Below are positions 55,759 to 64,000 of a stretch of DNA of 64,000 bases, piece by piece. The DNA is from Collimonas fungivorans Ter331 (lineage in GTDB: Bacteria; Pseudomonadota; Gammaproteobacteria; Burkholderiales; Burkholderiaceae_D), in the NCBI RefSeq assembly GCF_000221045.1, contig NC_015856.1, positions 3,802,542 to 3,866,541 on the forward strand, in the 5' to 3' direction. Both the position numbers and the translations under genes were made by a program. The notes below the pieces were generated by a model. The model had not been told where the DNA came from, did not search any database, and worked only from the letters and a program-made list of their open reading frames with translations. Every line of letters begins with the position of its first letter. Position 1 is the stretch's first letter.

Positions 55759-56379
55759 GAGCTTCTCGATCTACATTTCAAGCTGCTATTTTACGGGCTC
55801 GCCGGGCGATCCGGAAAAAAGGCTGCATACGTACTGCATCCGCCTCTTCATTCTCCTCCACAAATCCTAAAACAGTTTTTCGATGGGAAACCTGTCGAAA
55901 ACTTTCAGTTCCTGACATGCATGGCGCAACTTTCCACCTGTTAAAAGTGACAGGTGTTTGTTGGAATGTGTTTTCGTAAAAAAATAATATTCCGGAATAC
56001 TCGACACAGGACGATGCACTACCTAGCTATGAGATTTTTTAAAATCATTTTTTTTCATACGATTCATGCCAGATTATTTTTCAGAATATTCAACTACTCC
56101 TGGATCGAATCCAGCACGATGCAAAGTCAAAAAACTTGACTTACAGAAAGCAGAAGCTATGTTAAATAAACGTAGATTCGACGGACCGAAAACGACAAAC
56201 TAGAAATTCCCGTCCCGTGCACGATGCGTTGCAAACGCACGTGTCCATGCACCTGAATCTCGCGGACCACGCCGAATACGCGCGGGTAGATAGCTCCAGT
56301 TAAATGTAGCAATGCGTGTGGCAAGGCGCGTGGCAATACGGGAGACGCTTGTGGGCAAGCCATTACCTCAGGATTTATC
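55759..56379. other. AT-rich upstream region of the glycan-type operon
   Basis: About 620 bp. Contains the right copy of the 20-bp lux-box-like dyad (55936-55955), a TTCCGGAA palindrome near 55991, and strongly AT-rich DNA at 55975-56180 that probably includes the operon promoter. Small AT-rich frames here have no family resemblance. Confidence 0.5.
55936..55955. promoter_or_regulatory. lux-box-like 20-bp dyad, right copy
   Basis: ACCTGTTAAAAGTGACAGGT, exact reverse complement of the copy at 52789-52808 (identity extends to 22 bp). Lies 425 bp before the first gene of the rightward operon. Confidence 0.55.
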
Positions 56380-56925
56380 GTGAGCGCACTGTTCATCGCG
56401 TACGTCTATCCCGGCTGGCACGCGTCGTCGTTCCGTCCAGGTTTCGACGAGTGGAAACTGCTCGACCGCTTCCGGTCTTACTACGAGGGGCACGTGACGC
56501 CGCCCAGGCCGCAGGCCGGGTATTACGACGACTCCCGTCCCGAAACGGCCGAGGCAAGCATGCGCCAGGCGAGCGCCTACGGCATTGCCGGATTTTCCTA
56601 TTTCGCTTACTACCGGCGCGGCGGATTTGTCCTCGACGCACCTGTCGATGCAGCATTCGCGCGCGCCACAACCGTATCTGCGTTTCAATTGTCGCTGACG
56701 CTTTGCCTGCGCTTGCCGCATCGCGCACTGCCGCTGCCGCTCGACTACCGCCACTGGCGCGATGCCCGCCAGGCGGCTGCCGAGCCCTGCCTGCAACCGG
56801 ATATCGCCCGGCGCGCAGAGATCCCACGGCAGCATACTTTTAGCGAAGTCTCCGACCTCATCGGAGGTTCCGAACTGGAAGGCTTCTCGGTCGCATCATT
56901 CCTGCGAATGAAAAACTGCAGATAG
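56380..56925 (+). CDS. WbsX/GH99-like protein, N-terminal half, copy 1
   Basis: 181 aa, GTG start (AGGATTTATC upstream). FIAYVYPGWHASSFRPGFDE, W, YEGHVTPPRPQAGYYDDSRP and ASAYGIAGFSYFAYYRRGGF match the N-terminal part of WbsX/GH99-like glycan proteins (iayyfPqwHp...gfdEW...G...P..P..GYYD...GI.GF.f..Y). The domain stops after CLRLPHRALPLPL, where full-length relatives continue to the catalytic half. A short unique tail (HTFSEVSDLIGGSELEGF) follows. The matching C-terminal half is a separate gene at 57553. Confidence 0.8.
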   Translation: MSALFIAYVYPGWHASSFRPGFDEWKLLDRFRSYYEGHVTPPRPQAGYYDDSRPETAEASMRQASAYGIAGFSYFAYYRRGGFVLDAPVDAAFARATTVSAFQLSLTLCLRLPHRALPLPLDYRHWRDARQAAAEPCLQPDIARRAEIPRQHTFSEVSDLIGGSELEGFSVASFLRMKNCR

Positions 56926-56976
56926 CCGCTTATCCACCTCATGCGCCGATGACCGGCGAAAAAAGGGAGAAACATC

Positions 56977-57534
56977 ATGTCCGACGACGGCGACTATGGC
57001 TCTTGGTTCCACCACGACTGGGTAGAAGACTTGATCGATGTCATCAGATCCTATGTGGTGGATCCGGTCGACATCACCTTCGGCCAGCTGCGCGAACTGG
57101 TCGGCGCGGTCACCGAGCTCGACGTAGCCGGCGGCAACGCCGGCAAAGTGACGCTGCGCGCACTGGAGGCCACCATCCGCAGCCACAATGCGACGTTCCT
57201 GCCGGTGTCTTCGGTATTCGGCATCGTCGAGCTGTGCAGCAAGCATGCGAAAGCCGCCCACGGCCGCAGTTCGGTGCTGGACAGCCTGACGATGAACCAG
57301 CTGGGCGCCATCATGCGGCCCCAGTTTGCGCGGCTGAAACTGGAAGACCTGGTCGGCGTCGCCAAGCTGGCATCGCGCCAGGCGCGCCATGTCGACGTCT
57401 TCGACCAGGTCACCGTGGAACTGCTGACGCATTCGCTCTCGCATTCTGCCTTGCGCGCATTTACGCTTGCCGAATTGCGAACCACCCTGGAAGGATTGGC
57501 GACATCGGGAGTCTTCGCGAAGAGCGAGAAGTAA
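56977..57534 (+). CDS. Unknown protein between split WbsX-like halves
   Basis: 185 aa, strong AAAAGGGAGAAACATC ribosome-binding site. Starts MSDDGDYGSWFHHDWVEDLI. Mostly helical by composition, soluble. Contains repeated short motifs of the type (F/L)T-x2-(E/Q)L-x2-(L/I) : DITFGQLRELVG, SLTMNQLGAIMRP, AFTLAELRTTLEG, which recur in the tails of both N-terminal WbsX-like halves. No family recognised. Its position between the two halves suggests an assembly or substrate-binding partner. Confidence 0.7.
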   Translation: MSDDGDYGSWFHHDWVEDLIDVIRSYVVDPVDITFGQLRELVGAVTELDVAGGNAGKVTLRALEATIRSHNATFLPVSSVFGIVELCSKHAKAAHGRSSVLDSLTMNQLGAIMRPQFARLKLEDLVGVAKLASRQARHVDVFDQVTVELLTHSLSHSALRAFTLAELRTTLEGLATSGVFAKSEK

Positions 57535-57552
57535 TTCCGTCCAGGCGCCGCC

Positions 57553-58335
57553 ATGAATCGGGACAATCCGCACGAGCGGCTCGAACTGCTCGACTGGCAA
57601 AGCATGATTGCGTTATTCGAAGGATGGGCCGAGCGCTACTGCGCACATCCTTCGTATTTCCGCATCGGCGGCCGGCCGGTATGTTCGTTCCTGAACCTGG
57701 GCGATTTCGTGAACACCTATGGTCTGGATGGATTCCAGCTCATCATCCAGACCGCCCGCCAGATCATGCAAAGGCGCCTGGGGCAGGATCCTTTTGTCAT
57801 CGGCGTGTTTGGCGAAGCCACCTTGAAGCACTGCGCGCTGGCGAACCTGACTTCGATCGACGGCACCACGGGCTACGGACTGCTGCCGGAATGGACCGGC
57901 CCGCCGGTGCAGCACTATGCCGAACTGATTCCGCGCAGGACCGCCGAATGGGCCATGGTGCAGCGTCATCTGCGGGTGCCGTTCTTTCCCGTCGTGTGCG
58001 CCGGCTGGGATGCAACCGTGCGCGGCGAATGGGCGGCGGACCTGCGCAACTGCCGCGGCTTTCCCTGGCGCCCGGTAGTCGACGGCGTCAACGCCGAACT
58101 GTTCGGCCACTTCGTCGATGCCGCGGTCGCTTTCAACCTTGCCCACCACCCGGAGCTCAATGTGGTCTATGTGCATGCATGGAACGAATGGACGGAATCT
58201 TCCGCGATCGAACCCAGCGACCGCTTCGGCGACCAGTTCCTGCGGCAGCTGGCGCAGCGGACGCGCCCGATGCCGCTCGAACCGACTCCGAACCTGCCCT
58301 TGAATGGCGCTAACCACCGGGACATATCGACATGA
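57553..58335 (+). CDS. WbsX/GH99-like protein, C-terminal half, copy 1
   Basis: 260 aa. FEGWAERYCAHPSYFRIGGR and PVCSFLNLGDF, then PFFPVVCAGWDATVRGEWA and YVHAWNEWTESSAIEPSDRF. The N-E-W-T-E motif (Glu212, Glu215) corresponds to the catalytic NEWxE pair of GH99 endo-mannosidases and the WbsX domain. It has no N-terminal half of its own; that is the gene at 56380. Ends in ATGA overlapping the next gene. Possibly a glycan hydrolase or transglycosylase assembled from two chains. Confidence 0.8.
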   Translation: MNRDNPHERLELLDWQSMIALFEGWAERYCAHPSYFRIGGRPVCSFLNLGDFVNTYGLDGFQLIIQTARQIMQRRLGQDPFVIGVFGEATLKHCALANLTSIDGTTGYGLLPEWTGPPVQHYAELIPRRTAEWAMVQRHLRVPFFPVVCAGWDATVRGEWAADLRNCRGFPWRPVVDGVNAELFGHFVDAAVAFNLAHHPELNVVYVHAWNEWTESSAIEPSDRFGDQFLRQLAQRTRPMPLEPTPNLPLNGANHRDIST

Positions 58336-58889
58336 AACAACCTACACAGTTCATCGCCTATGTCTATCCTGGCTGGCACGCCAATGCATTCCGCGGCGAT
58401 TTTGACGAATGGACCCTGTTTGACAAGTTCTCGCCCTATTTTGACGGGCACCAGATGCCGTCGCGCCCTGCAGCCGGATTCTATGACGACAGCCAGCAGT
58501 CATGTTCAAGACGGCAGGTGCAGGAAGCCGCTGACGCCGGCATCAATGGCTTCACCTATTTTTTTTATTACGGCAACGACGGTCCGATCATGGCCGAACC
58601 GCTTGGCGCTGCCCTCGATGCAGCGGCCGCAGCCGACACTGTAGCTGATACCGCATTCGAGGTAGGAACAACCTGGTGCCTACGCCTGCCCCACACAAAT
58701 TTTCCCATTCCACTGGTTTCCGACGGCATGGGAATCAGCATCGACAGGATTACAGGCAAGGCCGCGCCGGACGGCGAATTCACCATCGGTGAGCTGGGCC
58801 GGGTGCTGGGACCGAATTGCCTTGACCAGCTTTCGCTCAGCGCAGCAATGCGGCTGACGCAAATCGGGCCCAGGCAGAAAAAGAAATAA
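58332..58889 (+). CDS. WbsX/GH99-like protein, N-terminal half, copy 2
   Basis: 185 aa. A paralogue of the gene at 56380: FIAYVYPGWHANAFRGDFDE, FDGHQMPSRPAAGFYDDSQQ, AADAGINGFTYFFYYGNDGP and again a truncated end CLRLPHTNFPIPL. Tail EFTIGELGRVLGPNCLDQLS carries the same short motif as the 185-aa protein. ATG overlaps the preceding stop (ATGA), indicating coupled translation. Confidence 0.8.
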   Translation: MKQPTQFIAYVYPGWHANAFRGDFDEWTLFDKFSPYFDGHQMPSRPAAGFYDDSQQSCSRRQVQEAADAGINGFTYFFYYGNDGPIMAEPLGAALDAAAAADTVADTAFEVGTTWCLRLPHTNFPIPLVSDGMGISIDRITGKAAPDGEFTIGELGRVLGPNCLDQLSLSAAMRLTQIGPRQKKK

Positions 58890-58951
58890 CCGGCCACTTT
58901 GTGCGGGAAGGAAAGACCAGGCGCAGCGATATCGAAGAAAACGAGGCTTCC

Positions 58952-59635
58952 ATGCTAAATCACCTGATCGTGAAGTACGACATAGAGCGCTATCCTTTTG
59001 CGCGCATCGTCGCCAGCCACTTGAAATGCTCGAACCTCGCCGCCATCCATCATGTCCATCAATATCCGAGATTCGACTGCGCCATTGAGCAGTCCACCGA
59101 GCTGCACCATCGGCTGTATGCGATCGGCAAGGAATTCTTCGATGTCTACGGCCGCTTCATCAGGGACCAGATCGCGCCGATGATCGGCGACGAAATCGTG
59201 TACCAGGCGCGGCCGAACTTCCGCTTCCAGCTGCCCGGAAACGTCGCCGTATCCGGCTTCCATCGCGACCGGGACAACCATCATCACACTGCCGAAATCA
59301 ATTTCTGGGTGCCGCTCACGCCGGTCTCGGAGCATACCGCCGTATGGATCGAATCGAGCGAAGGGAAACAGGATTTCCATCCCTATGTGGCCCAGTACGG
59401 CGAGATCCTGGTGTTCGACGGTGCCAACCTCATGCATGGCAATGTCGTCAACGAAAGCCAGGTCACCCGCTTCAGTTTCGATTTCCGCGCAGTGCCGGCG
59501 CGCCTGTTCGAGAACACCGGCATGCGCAGCGTAAACACGGAAGTCCCGATGTCTGTCGGCGGCTATTTTGCGCCGCTCGATCTTGCGCCTGCCCGCGATA
59601 TCGCTGCATCGGATGCGGCCTGCCATGTCGACTAA
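58952..59635 (+). CDS. Fe(II)/2-oxoglutarate oxygenase, StrG/phytanoyl-CoA hydroxylase-like
   Basis: 227 aa from the ATG at 58952 (ACGAGGCTTCC upstream; a GTG at 58901 would add 17 residues). The facial triad is visible: GFHRDRDNHHHTAEINFWVP gives His104 and Asp106, LMHGNVVN gives His162, and Arg173 in VTRFSFDFR can hold 2-oxoglutarate. The region from FHRD to DFR resembles StrG-type proteins of aminoglycoside clusters. Probably hydroxylates a sugar or amino-acid precursor. Its last 11 bases overlap the next gene. Confidence 0.85.
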   Translation: MLNHLIVKYDIERYPFARIVASHLKCSNLAAIHHVHQYPRFDCAIEQSTELHHRLYAIGKEFFDVYGRFIRDQIAPMIGDEIVYQARPNFRFQLPGNVAVSGFHRDRDNHHHTAEINFWVPLTPVSEHTAVWIESSEGKQDFHPYVAQYGEILVFDGANLMHGNVVNESQVTRFSFDFRAVPARLFENTGMRSVNTEVPMSVGGYFAPLDLAPARDIAASDAACHVD

Positions 59636-60389
59636 CCCGGCGACCAGGAATCCGCAGCCGCTGCGCCCTGTCATCCAGCGCTCGGGCCGGTTGAGCATCG
59701 GCGCCGTCGACGGTTTTCTCGACGACTGGATCGCCCGGTTTGCTTCGCGCCGGGCGTTTCTCCGGATTGACGGCCGCCCGGTGCTGTCGCTGCTCAACGT
59801 TACCGATTTCGACAAGCTCTATGGGACGGACGGCTTCCTGTTCCTGCTGCAGTACATCCGCCGCAAGCTGATCTCCCATTTCGGCGTGAATCCCTTTCTG
59901 ATCGGCGTCTTTCCGCTGATCGACGAATACCACACCAGAATTCTCCAGCGCTTGCCGGTAGACGCCGTCACCGGGTACGGCATGCTGCCCGACTGGGAAG
60001 GGCCGCCGGTGCAATGGTACGGCGAACTGATACCCAAGCGGGTGGCCGAATGGCATCGGCTCCAGCAGCGGCTCAGCATCCCGTTCCTGCCGGTGGTCTG
60101 CGCCGGCTGGGACGCCACGCTGCGCGGTGCGCCGGTCGCCGACATCCGGCAAGTGCGAGGTTTCCCCTGGCGGCCGATCGTGGCCGGCGTCACGCCCCAG
60201 CTGTTCGGCCGCTTCCTGGACGAAGCGATTGCCTTCAACCAGCGCTGGCACCCGGCCCACCGCGTGGTTTTCCTGCACGCCTACAACGAATGGACCGAGG
60301 CTTCGGCTATCGAGCCCAGCGAACGGTTTGGCTCGGGCTTCCTGGAGCAGATTCACGCCAGGTCCAGGCAGCTGGAAGGAGCGTTATGA
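59625..60389 (+). CDS. WbsX/GH99-like protein, C-terminal half, copy 2
   Basis: 254 aa. Close paralogue of the gene at 57553 (shared PPVQ-Y-ELIP-R-AEW, PVVCAGWDAT, RGFPWRPIV and EWTEASAIEPSERFGSGFL). The catalytic-type NEWTE is kept (Glu222, Glu225). Start taken at MSTNPATRN, 11 bp inside the oxygenase gene; stop overlaps the formyltransferase start (ATGA). N-terminal partner is the gene at 58332. Confidence 0.8.
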   Translation: MSTNPATRNPQPLRPVIQRSGRLSIGAVDGFLDDWIARFASRRAFLRIDGRPVLSLLNVTDFDKLYGTDGFLFLLQYIRRKLISHFGVNPFLIGVFPLIDEYHTRILQRLPVDAVTGYGMLPDWEGPPVQWYGELIPKRVAEWHRLQQRLSIPFLPVVCAGWDATLRGAPVADIRQVRGFPWRPIVAGVTPQLFGRFLDEAIAFNQRWHPAHRVVFLHAYNEWTEASAIEPSERFGSGFLEQIHARSRQLEGAL

Positions 60390-61228
60390 AACTGCTAATC
60401 GCCGGCAAGAGTTTCATCGGCTGCCACAGCTTGCGCCATGCCAGCGACATGCGGGCGCTGGGTATAACCGGCTATACGCTGCTGGCGCTGCCCAATGCCG
60501 GCGGTGACACTGCCTGGGAACCGTCAATGCGCCGCACTGCGCGCCAGCTTGGCGTCGATATCGTCGACGACATCGCCGCTGCCGGCCTCAGCGGCAGCGA
60601 TATATTCCTGTCGGTCGAATACGATCGCAAAGTCCGCATCGAGGATTTGGGCGGCGCCCGCGCCTACAATCTCCACCTGGCGGCGCTGCCTGGCTATCGC
60701 GGCTGCCTCAACAGCACCTGGCCGCTGCGCAATGGCGAATCTACCGCGGCCGCCACGCTGCACCAGCTGACCGACAAAATAGACGCGGGACCGGTGATCG
60801 CCGTTCGCCGATTCCAGATTTCAGCGTTTCATAGCGCCTTCGATTTGTATCTCCTCCTGCAACGCCATGGGTTCGAACTGGTGAAGGAACAATTCGCCGC
60901 CATGCTCACCGCCGATCACGTCCTGCAGCCGCAAGCTGCCGGCCAGGCGGCTTTTTATGCGCGAGGCTCGATCGATTTCCAGTCCCTGGACGTCGGTGAT
61001 TTCGAGCGGCCGGCGCGTGTTGTCGATGGCTGGGTGCGCTCCCTGATTTTTCCGCCGCATCAGCTTCCCCGATTCGGCGGACGCGCCATCTGTGCCTGCG
61101 AATGCATTGCGCTGCCGCGCAGGAAGCAGCACCGGCCGGGAGAGGTAGCCGCCGGCAGCGGCAGCCACGCAGTGATCGCCTGCGGAGATGGTTATGTGCG
61201 CTTCGAATTCGAGGGAGGCTTGCAATGA
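60386..61228 (+). CDS. Formyltransferase family protein
   Basis: 280 aa. Formyl-tetrahydrofolate-dependent transferase fold: NLHLAALPGYRGCLNSTWPL and HQLTDKIDAGPVIAV supply the conserved N95, H97 and D133 of the Fmt/ArnA/PurN catalytic triad. A C-terminal OB-like part (FYARGSIDFQSLDVGDFERP) is as in sugar-nucleotide N-formyltransferases. With the adjacent aminotransferase this suggests an N-formylated amino sugar. Methionyl-tRNA Fmt is not implied: it is longer and found elsewhere in genomes. Confidence 0.88.
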   Translation: MKLLIAGKSFIGCHSLRHASDMRALGITGYTLLALPNAGGDTAWEPSMRRTARQLGVDIVDDIAAAGLSGSDIFLSVEYDRKVRIEDLGGARAYNLHLAALPGYRGCLNSTWPLRNGESTAAATLHQLTDKIDAGPVIAVRRFQISAFHSAFDLYLLLQRHGFELVKEQFAAMLTADHVLQPQAAGQAAFYARGSIDFQSLDVGDFERPARVVDGWVRSLIFPPHQLPRFGGRAICACECIALPRRKQHRPGEVAAGSGSHAVIACGDGYVRFEFEGGLQ

Positions 61229-62385
61229 ACATCGCTTCGGCAAAGATCGTCATGCCGGCAGAGGATATCGACGAAATCACGCGAAACATCCGCCTCATTC
61301 TCGAAAGCGGGCGGCTTATCCTCGGGCCTTACACCGAGGCCTTCGAACACGCTCTGTCAAGCATGCATGGCGGCGCGCACGCAATCGCCGTCAGCAACGG
61401 TACCGGTGCGCTGGAAATCATCCTGCGCGCGCTGGGCGTGCAGGGCAGACAGGTAGTGGTTCCTGCCAATACCTTTTTTGCGACAGCCGCAGCAGCGCTG
61501 CATGCCGGCGCCACCCTGCGCTTTGCCGACGTCGGCGCGCAGACCATGATGCTTACCCTGGCGAGCGTCGAACGCGCGGTGACGGCCGATACCGCAGCGG
61601 TGGTCATGGTGCATATCGGCGGCGCCATTTCGCCAGAACTGGATGCGATCAAAGCGTTTTGCGAAGCGCGCGGCATATATCTGGCTGAAGATGCGGCGCA
61701 CGCCCTGGGATCGACCTATCAAGGACGGGCGGCAGGAACGCTCGGCGCAGCAGGCTCATTCTCGTTCTATCCGACCAAGATCGTCACTTGCGGCGAAGGC
61801 GGCGCGATCATCACGCACGATGCAGCGATTGCGCGCGAAGCCGTCATTCACCGCGACCAGGGCAAACAGGCTTTTTCCGAGAATTGCCACATCCGGCTCG
61901 GCTATAACTGGCGCCTGAGCGAAATTCATGCGGCGGTTGGACTGGTCCAGCTACGGCGGCTGCAGCAGTTCATCACGGCAAAACGCGCCGTTGCCGCAAG
62001 ATACGACCAGCGCATCGCTGTCCTCGACGGCGTCACGCCGGTCCCGGAAGGCGCCGGCGTACGTTCGAATTACCATAAATATGTTGTGCTGCTCGATGCC
62101 GGCTGCGACAGGGCGATGCTGCGCTCCATGATGCAGGAAACGGCTGGCATCCAGCTTGGAACCGGCGTCTACGATGTGCCGCTGCATCTGCAGCCGGTTT
62201 TTTCGGGCATGGACAATACCGGCCTGCAGGTAGCGGAAGACGTTTGCGCCCGCCACGTCTGCCTGCCGATTCATTCCGACATGACATTTGCGGACGCCGA
62301 CCGCGTCATTACCGCGCTGGCCGCCTGCCTGGCCCGCTTGCGCAAAACCGCGGCGCCGCTTGTCCACGAAGGCGATCTGCAATGA
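61225..62385 (+). CDS. DegT/DnrJ/EryC1/StrS family aminotransferase
   Basis: 386 aa PLP enzyme. VSNGTGALEIILRALGV near the N-terminus, LAEDAAHALGSTYQG (Asp156 stacking PLP), and GSFSFYPTKIVTCGEGGAII with Schiff-base Lys185. YNWRLSEIHAAVGLVQL is the sugar-aminotransferase signature. Likely transaminates a keto-sugar or related intermediate. ATGA-coupled to the formyltransferase. Its stop overlaps a 13-codon frame leading to the next gene. Confidence 0.92.
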   Translation: MNIASAKIVMPAEDIDEITRNIRLILESGRLILGPYTEAFEHALSSMHGGAHAIAVSNGTGALEIILRALGVQGRQVVVPANTFFATAAAALHAGATLRFADVGAQTMMLTLASVERAVTADTAAVVMVHIGGAISPELDAIKAFCEARGIYLAEDAAHALGSTYQGRAAGTLGAAGSFSFYPTKIVTCGEGGAIITHDAAIAREAVIHRDQGKQAFSENCHIRLGYNWRLSEIHAAVGLVQLRRLQQFITAKRAVAARYDQRIAVLDGVTPVPEGAGVRSNYHKYVVLLDAGCDRAMLRSMMQETAGIQLGTGVYDVPLHLQPVFSGMDNTGLQVAEDVCARHVCLPIHSDMTFADADRVITALAACLARLRKTAAPLVHEGDLQ

Positions 62386-62415: not shown

Positions 62416-63666
62416 ATGGATAGGCATGCTGCGCTGCCTCGCATGCGCCCTCCTGCGCCGCCCCTATGGAGCGATTGCCTGCTGACGGTCGGCGTCACCG
62501 GGACCAACGGCAAGACTTCGACTACCGGCATGGTGGCAAACGCGCTTGGCTGCCTGCAACAGCCGGTGGCTCGCATCACCAGCATCGGCGCCTATGTCGG
62601 CAGCGAGCACATGAACGTGCCGCGCAGCTACGCCGGCCTGGTCGAGACGATGCGCGCGGTCTTGCAGCGTGGCGGCCATTACGCCGCGCTTGAGCTGGCC
62701 AGCTGGTCGTTGGCCCAGGGTTTCATGCAAGCGTGGCCGTGCCAGGTTGGCGTCTTTACCAACCTTACCCCCGAACATATGGATATCCACGGCTCGATGG
62801 AAAACTACCTGGCCGCCAAGACCCAGCTGTTCATCAACCTGCCGGAAGCGGGGATCGCCGTGCTCAATGGCTGCGACCCGGCGTCAGAAGTTATCGCAGC
62901 CGTCACGCCGCCTGGAACGCGGATCATTTATTACGGTACGGCGTCGCGCGGCCGGCCGCGGCACGCGCTGGACATTATCGCGGACGAGGTTGCCGTGAGC
63001 TGGACCGGCACCCGCCTGCGCTTGTCGGCAGCAGCCGGCCTCGGTGCAGTGCCGGTGAAACTGACGCTGCGGGCGATTGGTGAAATTTACGCGGAAAATG
63101 CGCTAGCCGCACTGGCTGCAGCCATCGGCGCTGGTGTCCCGGCGCAGCAGGCGGCCGATGCCATTGCGGCAACCGCGCCGCCGCCGGGCCGCTTTGAAAT
63201 ACTCGGGCAATCACCATGGATCGTGCTGGACTATGCCCACACGCCCGATGCCATCTGCCGTACGCTTTCCACGGCGCGCCAGTTGAGCCACGGCTGCATC
63301 TCGATCGTCTTCGGCGCCGGCGGCGACCGCGACCGGCCCAAGCGGAAGCTGATGGGACAGGCGGCAATGGCGGCCGACCGCGTGTTCCTTACCAGCGACA
63401 ATCCGCGCAACGAAGATCCGCTGGCCATCATCGAAGATATCCGGCTTGGACTGCAAGGACATCGGGACATCAGTGTCAATCCCGATCGCAGGCAGGCCAT
63501 CATCGCAGCGCTTGCAGCGGCCTCGGGCGACGATGTCGTCATCCTCGCCGGCCGCGGCCCGGAGACGCACCAATGCGTACGGGCGGCCTGGCACCCCATG
63601 TGCGACGCCGATATCGTCCGGGAGATCATCGGCGGCGAACCGGTGGTTCACGAAGGATGGACATGA
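62416..63666 (+). CDS. Mur ligase family protein, MurE-like without domain 1
   Basis: 416 aa. The ATP-binding central domain begins almost at the start: VGVTGTNGKTSTTGMVANAL (P-loop residues 29-36), then FTNLTPEHMDIHGSMENYLAAKTQLF, NALAALAAAIGAGV and a C-terminal domain WIVLDYAHTPDAI, VFGAGGDRDRPKRKLMG, TSDNPRNEDP (MurE DNPR-type motif). The first about 90 residues of MurE, which bind the UDP-sugar, are missing. It probably joins an amino acid or peptide to a non-peptidoglycan acceptor. Stop overlaps the next ATG. Confidence 0.88.
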   Translation: MDRHAALPRMRPPAPPLWSDCLLTVGVTGTNGKTSTTGMVANALGCLQQPVARITSIGAYVGSEHMNVPRSYAGLVETMRAVLQRGGHYAALELASWSLAQGFMQAWPCQVGVFTNLTPEHMDIHGSMENYLAAKTQLFINLPEAGIAVLNGCDPASEVIAAVTPPGTRIIYYGTASRGRPRHALDIIADEVAVSWTGTRLRLSAAAGLGAVPVKLTLRAIGEIYAENALAALAAAIGAGVPAQQAADAIAATAPPPGRFEILGQSPWIVLDYAHTPDAICRTLSTARQLSHGCISIVFGAGGDRDRPKRKLMGQAAMAADRVFLTSDNPRNEDPLAIIEDIRLGLQGHRDISVNPDRRQAIIAALAAASGDDVVILAGRGPETHQCVRAAWHPMCDADIVREIIGGEPVVHEGWT

Positions 63667-64000
63667 CGGCTCCCAAAAAAATACTGCTGGTCAACGGCTG
63701 CAGCCACACCGCGGGATCGGAAATCGATACGCTTGGCGTGGCGCCGCACGGGTATTCGCCGGAAAAGGCATTCGGCGCCCATCTTGCCAATGCAATGGGT
63801 TGCGACGATTACGTCAACATTGCAATGCCCGGGGGTTCCAACGAACGGATCACGCGCACCACGATCGACTGGATAGGCAAATACCATAAGCCCGCGGACC
63901 AGCTGTTCGTGGTGATCATGTGGACCGGCCGCGACCGCTTCGAACTTTACGACGACCGCAACCGGATCTGGCTCAGCCTGTGTCCGGGCGTAGAACGCTC
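63663..64000 (+). CDS. SGNH-like hydrolase, 5' part (runs off window)
   Basis: 112 codons visible. MTAPKKILLVNGCSHTAGSE resembles SGNH/GDSL block I with the nucleophile Ser in NGCSHT, AMPGGSNERITR matches the GxN block III, and VVIMWTGRDRF follows. ATGA-coupled to the Mur ligase. Could deacylate or acylate a glycan. The catalytic Asp-His end is beyond the window. Confidence 0.65.
   Translation, partial: MTAPKKILLVNGCSHTAGSEIDTLGVAPHGYSPEKAFGAHLANAMGCDDYVNIAMPGGSNERITRTTIDWIGKYHKPADQLFVVIMWTGRDRFELYDDRNRIWLSLCPGVER

Follow-up and report, generated by a model that had tools for sequence, protein, structure and literature searches.

A WbsX/GH99-like protein of Collimonas, encoded twice and probably assembled from separate N- and C-terminal chains

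LacLM of lactobacilli is described in reports such as PMC4358714 and PMC3155831 as a heterodimeric β-galactosidase produced from two overlapping genes, and the half-barrels of HisF appear in excerpts of two others either as engineered constructs or as a proposed ancestral four-unit half-barrel (PMC4531894, PMC1963479). For GH99 enzymes, residue x of the EWxE motif is given as H or G in an excerpt of PMC11025385. No report of a split WbsX or GH99 protein was found among the titles and abstract openings of the open-licence PMC papers retrieved. Here, we describe a locus of the soil bacterium Collimonas fungivorans Ter331 at which a WbsX/GH99-like protein is encoded twice, each time as two separate chains with another gene between them.

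The locus lies in a 64,000-nucleotide stretch (the window, from whose first nucleotide positions are counted) of a genome that consists of a single contig of 5,186,898 bases. A sequence-only reading had proposed two modules with the order N-half, other gene, C-half, and the coordinates and frames of the six genes were borne out:

56380..56925, + strand: N1, N-terminal WbsX/GH99-like half (181 aa, GTG start, 60-residue tail; PF14307 positions 21-101, E 1.5e-13)
56977..57534, + strand: X, no known family, between N1 and C1 (185 aa)
57553..58335, + strand: C1, C-terminal WbsX/GH99-like half (260 aa, NEWTE; PF14307 positions 266-349, E 4.8e-11)
58332..58889, + strand: N2, second N-terminal half (185 aa, 57-residue tail; PF14307 positions 17-96, E 7.3e-14)
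58952..59635, + strand: OG, 2OG-Fe(II) oxygenase-like, between N2 and C2 (227 aa; TIGR04324 E 5.5e-17)
59625..60389, + strand: C2, second C-terminal half (254 aa, NEWTE; PF14307 positions 270-350, E 5.6e-12)

All six frames are open on the + strand, and the gaps at their five junctions are 51, 18, −4, 62, and −11 bases. The first 4 bases of N2 are also the last of C1, and OG and C2 share 11 bases; with overlap at two of five junctions, the earlier description of mostly coupled starts holds only in part. The halves are paralogous between modules, as first read, and far above chance: C1 and C2 share 51% identity (E 5e-86), and N1 and N2 share 38% (E 1e-38). The claim that the N-halves end after a CLRLPH...P.PL segment was wrong, since N1 continues for 60 residues beyond it and N2 for 57.

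A domain search of Pfam, called for at the outset, matched all four halves to WbsX (PF14307, Glyco_tran_WbsX) with scores of 43.2-52.4 bits, all of which exceed the curated cut-off (25.1 bits). N1 and N2 match the model only at positions 17-101, and C1 and C2 only at positions 266-350; no chain matches it over its whole length, its ends sit in separate chains, and its middle is unmatched. The four halves of a second Collimonas locus (L017) show the same division of the PF14307 start and end. On a 353-position profile built from 49 one-chain relatives, the N-halves are confined to positions 3-113 and the C-halves to positions 147-348 in all three genomes that carry the split. Of the one-chain relatives found, L007 (383 aa) is the closest; alignment to it places N1 at residues 8-135 and C1 at 129-359, together spanning 8-359, and N2 at 5-157 and C2 at 140-366, together spanning 5-366. 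The N and C alignments abut or overlap slightly, with an identity to L007 of just 28-34% over the aligned parts. Judged by length, little or nothing of the WbsX domain is absent from the N+C pairs.

The WANExW block, which comprises nine of the 65 well-conserved one-chain columns and whose residues are each present in 44-49 of the 49 one-chain rows, is unaligned in N-halves and C-halves alike: the profile alignment of N1 and N2 stops before it, and that of C1 and C2 starts after it. In the alignment to L007, CLRLPH of the N-halves occupies the place of WANHDW. The remaining conserved columns are kept at 19 of 31 positions in N1, 18 of 31 in N2, and 16 of 25 in each of C1 and C2. With the WANExW block and further conserved columns missing, the activity of the halves may be changed or lost.

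The NEWTE catalytic pair is kept in both C1 and C2, as the sequence-only reading had stated, and aligns with NEWHE of the GH99 enzyme 4ad1, in which the glutamates are E333 and E336 by a count along the alignment as printed; 4v28, titled E333Q, has Q at the E333 position of this alignment. C1 and C2 both have T, neither H nor G, as residue x of EWxE. Profile positions N323, E324, W325, E327, E332, and P333 are kept in both C-halves. The GH99 match of the C-half sequence is weak (E 0.07 for the whole; i-E 24 for the NEWHE stretch alone). The structure model of C2 (pLDDT 77.6, pTM 0.77) has GH99 as its best PDB match (Foldseek E 5.4e-6), and all 12 PDB matches of this model at E ≤ 0.001 are GH99, with a loose superposition (TM 0.49-0.53 of query, rmsd 6.3-7.1). 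DSSP assigns seven strand elements to the C2 model, of which, by our count, five may belong to the barrel, each then followed by a helix (51-57, 91-96, 114-117, 157-159, and 216-218). By this strand count the model is short of a full barrel, and C2 thus does not appear to be the complete independent fold that had been named beforehand as speaking against a two-chain enzyme. The N-half profile gave no match to the PDB at E 10. The cut would lie between barrel units 3 and 4, the N chain corresponding to units 1-3.

Loci with the same split, for which a search had been proposed, were found in three of 15 Collimonas genomes, the one analyzed here included. The same three genomes carry both N-halves, both C-halves, and X in a conserved gene order, and two of the three are single-contig. 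One relative, L017, was found in the named genome collection; it represents the genome G403 in the comparisons of gaps and dN/dS. All five gaps are equal in the three genomes except one, which measures 44 bases in G402 and 62 in the others. The dN/dS values range from 0.000 to 0.163 in 18 comparisons (six genes in three genome pairs), those of N1 being the highest of the six genes (0.140-0.163). The same intact frames in three genomes, together with low dN/dS, uphold the initial statement that this is not a single recent frameshift. In addition to the split form, G402 encodes an ordinary WbsX in one chain (L081), whose open frame spans 382 aa.

Outside the island, 36 loci were compared; both halves were present in a single chain in 35 of the 36 matched frames, each half being counted at a domain E < 0.001. 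Because L053 and L028 are the same gene, as are L055 and L025, the 35 frames represent 33 distinct one-chain genes. In the remaining frame, L008 (671 aa), the N-part falls below threshold. A class search yielded one-chain forms at 11 of 11 loci, and the relatives on viral contigs, 15 of 18 of which were read, contain no stop in the matched stretch. The C-half profile had no match in viral contigs, and C2 gave two weak matches to phages. Matches also occurred in plasmids. No split form was seen outside Collimonas in the sampled genomes, in which mostly few candidates were scored and at strict E-values; close relatives with fused halves, the other finding that had been named as contrary, did not turn up in the searches. 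Two genomes, G1090 and G936, each have a closely spaced pair of full-length one-chain WbsX genes (L091, L099; L092, L100).

Trees of 51 rows place N1 and N2 as sisters and C1 and C2 as sisters, with support of 100/99 in each case, and long branches meet in both trees; trees and profile use 49 one-chain rows, with L053, L055, L008, the class-search loci, and the viral L072-L074 left out. Because both pairs are sisters and the N-tails resemble each other, we prefer a history in which the split occurred once and the module was then duplicated, the copies now having different middle genes. The trees would fit two parallel splits after duplication as well.

The tails of N1 and N2 resemble each other weakly (score 33 vs. 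a shuffle mean of 20.2, p 0.0065, 2000 shuffles). For the N1 tail as a whole, dN/dS is higher than for the N1 core (0.264 and 0.174 vs. 0.081 and 0.132), pointing to faster evolution. The N1 linker is variable between species; the ends of the tails are nearly constant, the final 32 residues of N1 differing at 2-3 positions and the final 38 of N2 at 0-1. Homology of the tails to X was unsupported (p 0.0135 for the N2 tail, p 0.11 for the N1 tail), a tail profile scoring 0.6 on X, a value reached by 55 of 2000 shuffles and beaten by three unrelated frames, and homology to the start of the C-halves likewise found no support.

X has no Pfam match at E 1, no NCBIfam match, and no PDB match at E 10, and its best match in PHROGs reaches only E 0.14. 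Its model is all-helical with a pLDDT of 43.7, a low confidence that leaves nothing usable past mostly helix. A candidate 45-residue repeat was set aside: its best window score of 25 was reached by 15.5% of 200 shuffles, and the repeat is therefore not claimed. Relatives of X were found neither in plasmids nor in viral contigs, and within the genus it occurs only in the three cassette genomes (identity of 100% in G403 and 98.9% in G402), apart from a weak match in G410 (E 0.003, two internal stops). Among the six genes, dN/dS is lowest for X, at 0.000-0.024. OG matches TIGR04324 (sporadic carbohydrate cluster oxygenase) at 62.2 bits, under the cut-off of 150, and has no Pfam match above cut-off and no match at 1e-8 among 368 other genomes of the order.

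Both modules belong to an 11-gene cassette of about 10 kb, which continues as follows:

60386..61228, + strand: formyltransferase-like (PF00551 E 1.9e-7)
61225..62385, + strand: DegT/PseC-like aminotransferase (PF01041 E 1.8e-102)
62416..63666, + strand: MurE-like ligase (PF08245 E 2.6e-38, PF02875 E 6.9e-28)
63663..64000, on to 64385 past the window, + strand: DUF6071 protein (PF19547 E 1.3e-22)
64498-66045, past the window: carbamoyltransferase, last of the 11 genes (PF16861 E 1.8e-55)

The full set of 11 genes is present in the genome analyzed here and in G402, and the contig of G403 stops inside the aminotransferase gene. Pfam searches of the 11 genes returned no flippase, polymerase, or further glycosyltransferase. 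The MurE-like ligase scores above the TIGR01085 cut-off, yet its match covers the model only from position 85 of 472 onward, so that the N-terminal part is lacking. The upstream neighbor of the cassette is found at E 1e-50 in eight of 15 Collimonas genomes. Four of the five such genomes without the cassette (L085-L088) show an empty site, where sequence like 55,770-55,806 is followed by sequence like 66,078-66,086 with 239-493 bases between them; the fifth (L089) matched on the upstream side only. The 620 bases before the cassette (55760-56379) have a GC content of 44.7% vs. 61.9% for the cassette, and three promoter-like sites vs. 1.9 expected occur in 55760-60500.

We consider it likely that the locus encodes a two-chain WbsX/GH99-like barrel, conserved, derived from a single split, and duplicated thereafter, and not a broken gene. 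The two-chain enzyme first suggested by the sequence-only reading is supported by the complementarity of the halves with respect to one-chain relatives, conservation in three genomes, purifying selection, and the C2 model. In the mechanism we propose, each N-half and a C-half would form one two-chain (β/α)8 barrel, with units 1-3 coming from the N chain and units 4-8, together with the catalytic glutamate pair, from the C chain, so that an active site would arise only where N and C meet. One gene fission would have been followed by module duplication, giving the copies that now differ in their middle genes. The probable target would be an amino-sugar glycan or conjugate made by the other enzymes of the cassette.

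A different pairing may be envisaged, in which N- and C-halves associate in several combinations, giving up to four barrels, with the choice biased by the middle proteins. The intact frames of both modules, their paralogy, and their position in one gene run agree with such an exchange of partners, as do tail ends that hardly change between species while the N1 linker varies. Against it stand the faster evolution of the N1 tail as a whole relative to its core and the weak resemblance of the tails to X, and we regard it as unlikely. We hold the same low expectation of a combinatorial split barrel, in which GH99-like N- and C-chains would be interchangeable and X and OG would serve as assembly or selector subunits acting through the conserved N-tail end.

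The halves could also have turned into separate proteins with non-enzymatic or binding roles, as parts of a larger biosynthetic assembly that includes X and OG, a view to which the loss of the WANExW block and other conserved columns and the unrelated kinds of genes between the halves lend weight. However, the catalytic pair and neighboring columns are kept in both C-halves, and a lone part-barrel would, judging from the C2 model, expose open sheet edges; such roles seem doubtful to us. That the genes are broken, or misread by sequencing error, from a one-chain WbsX is suggested by one-chain forms being the rule elsewhere, but identical intact frames occur in three genomes, two of them single-contig, whole genes stand between the halves, and dN/dS stays at 0.000-0.163, which makes this extremely improbable; a frame error or pseudogene was rejected on the basis of the conserved frames, gene order, and low dN/dS. 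If the two-chain barrel that we favor is real, a conserved and duplicated natural split, with other genes lying between its parts, would offer a test case for the assembly of a two-chain (β/α)8 active site, and the same split would inform how gene fission becomes fixed.

With WbsX (PF14307), the halves share both profile ends and the NEW-E motif, and they differ from it in spreading one domain over two chains and in having CLRLPH instead of WANHDW. With the GH99 endo-α-mannosidases/mannanases (4ad0, 4ad1, 4v28), they share the two catalytic glutamates, and the C2 model has its best, if loose, fold match there; the sequence match is weak, and the locus has two chains and biosynthesis-like neighbor genes. 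LacLM, as those reports portray it, resembles the predicted Collimonas protein in being a two-gene sugar enzyme, but its genes overlap with none between them and it is a β-galactosidase. HisF, in the excerpts cited, likewise yields a barrel from part-barrels, whereas the Collimonas case would be a natural split, probably into three and five units.
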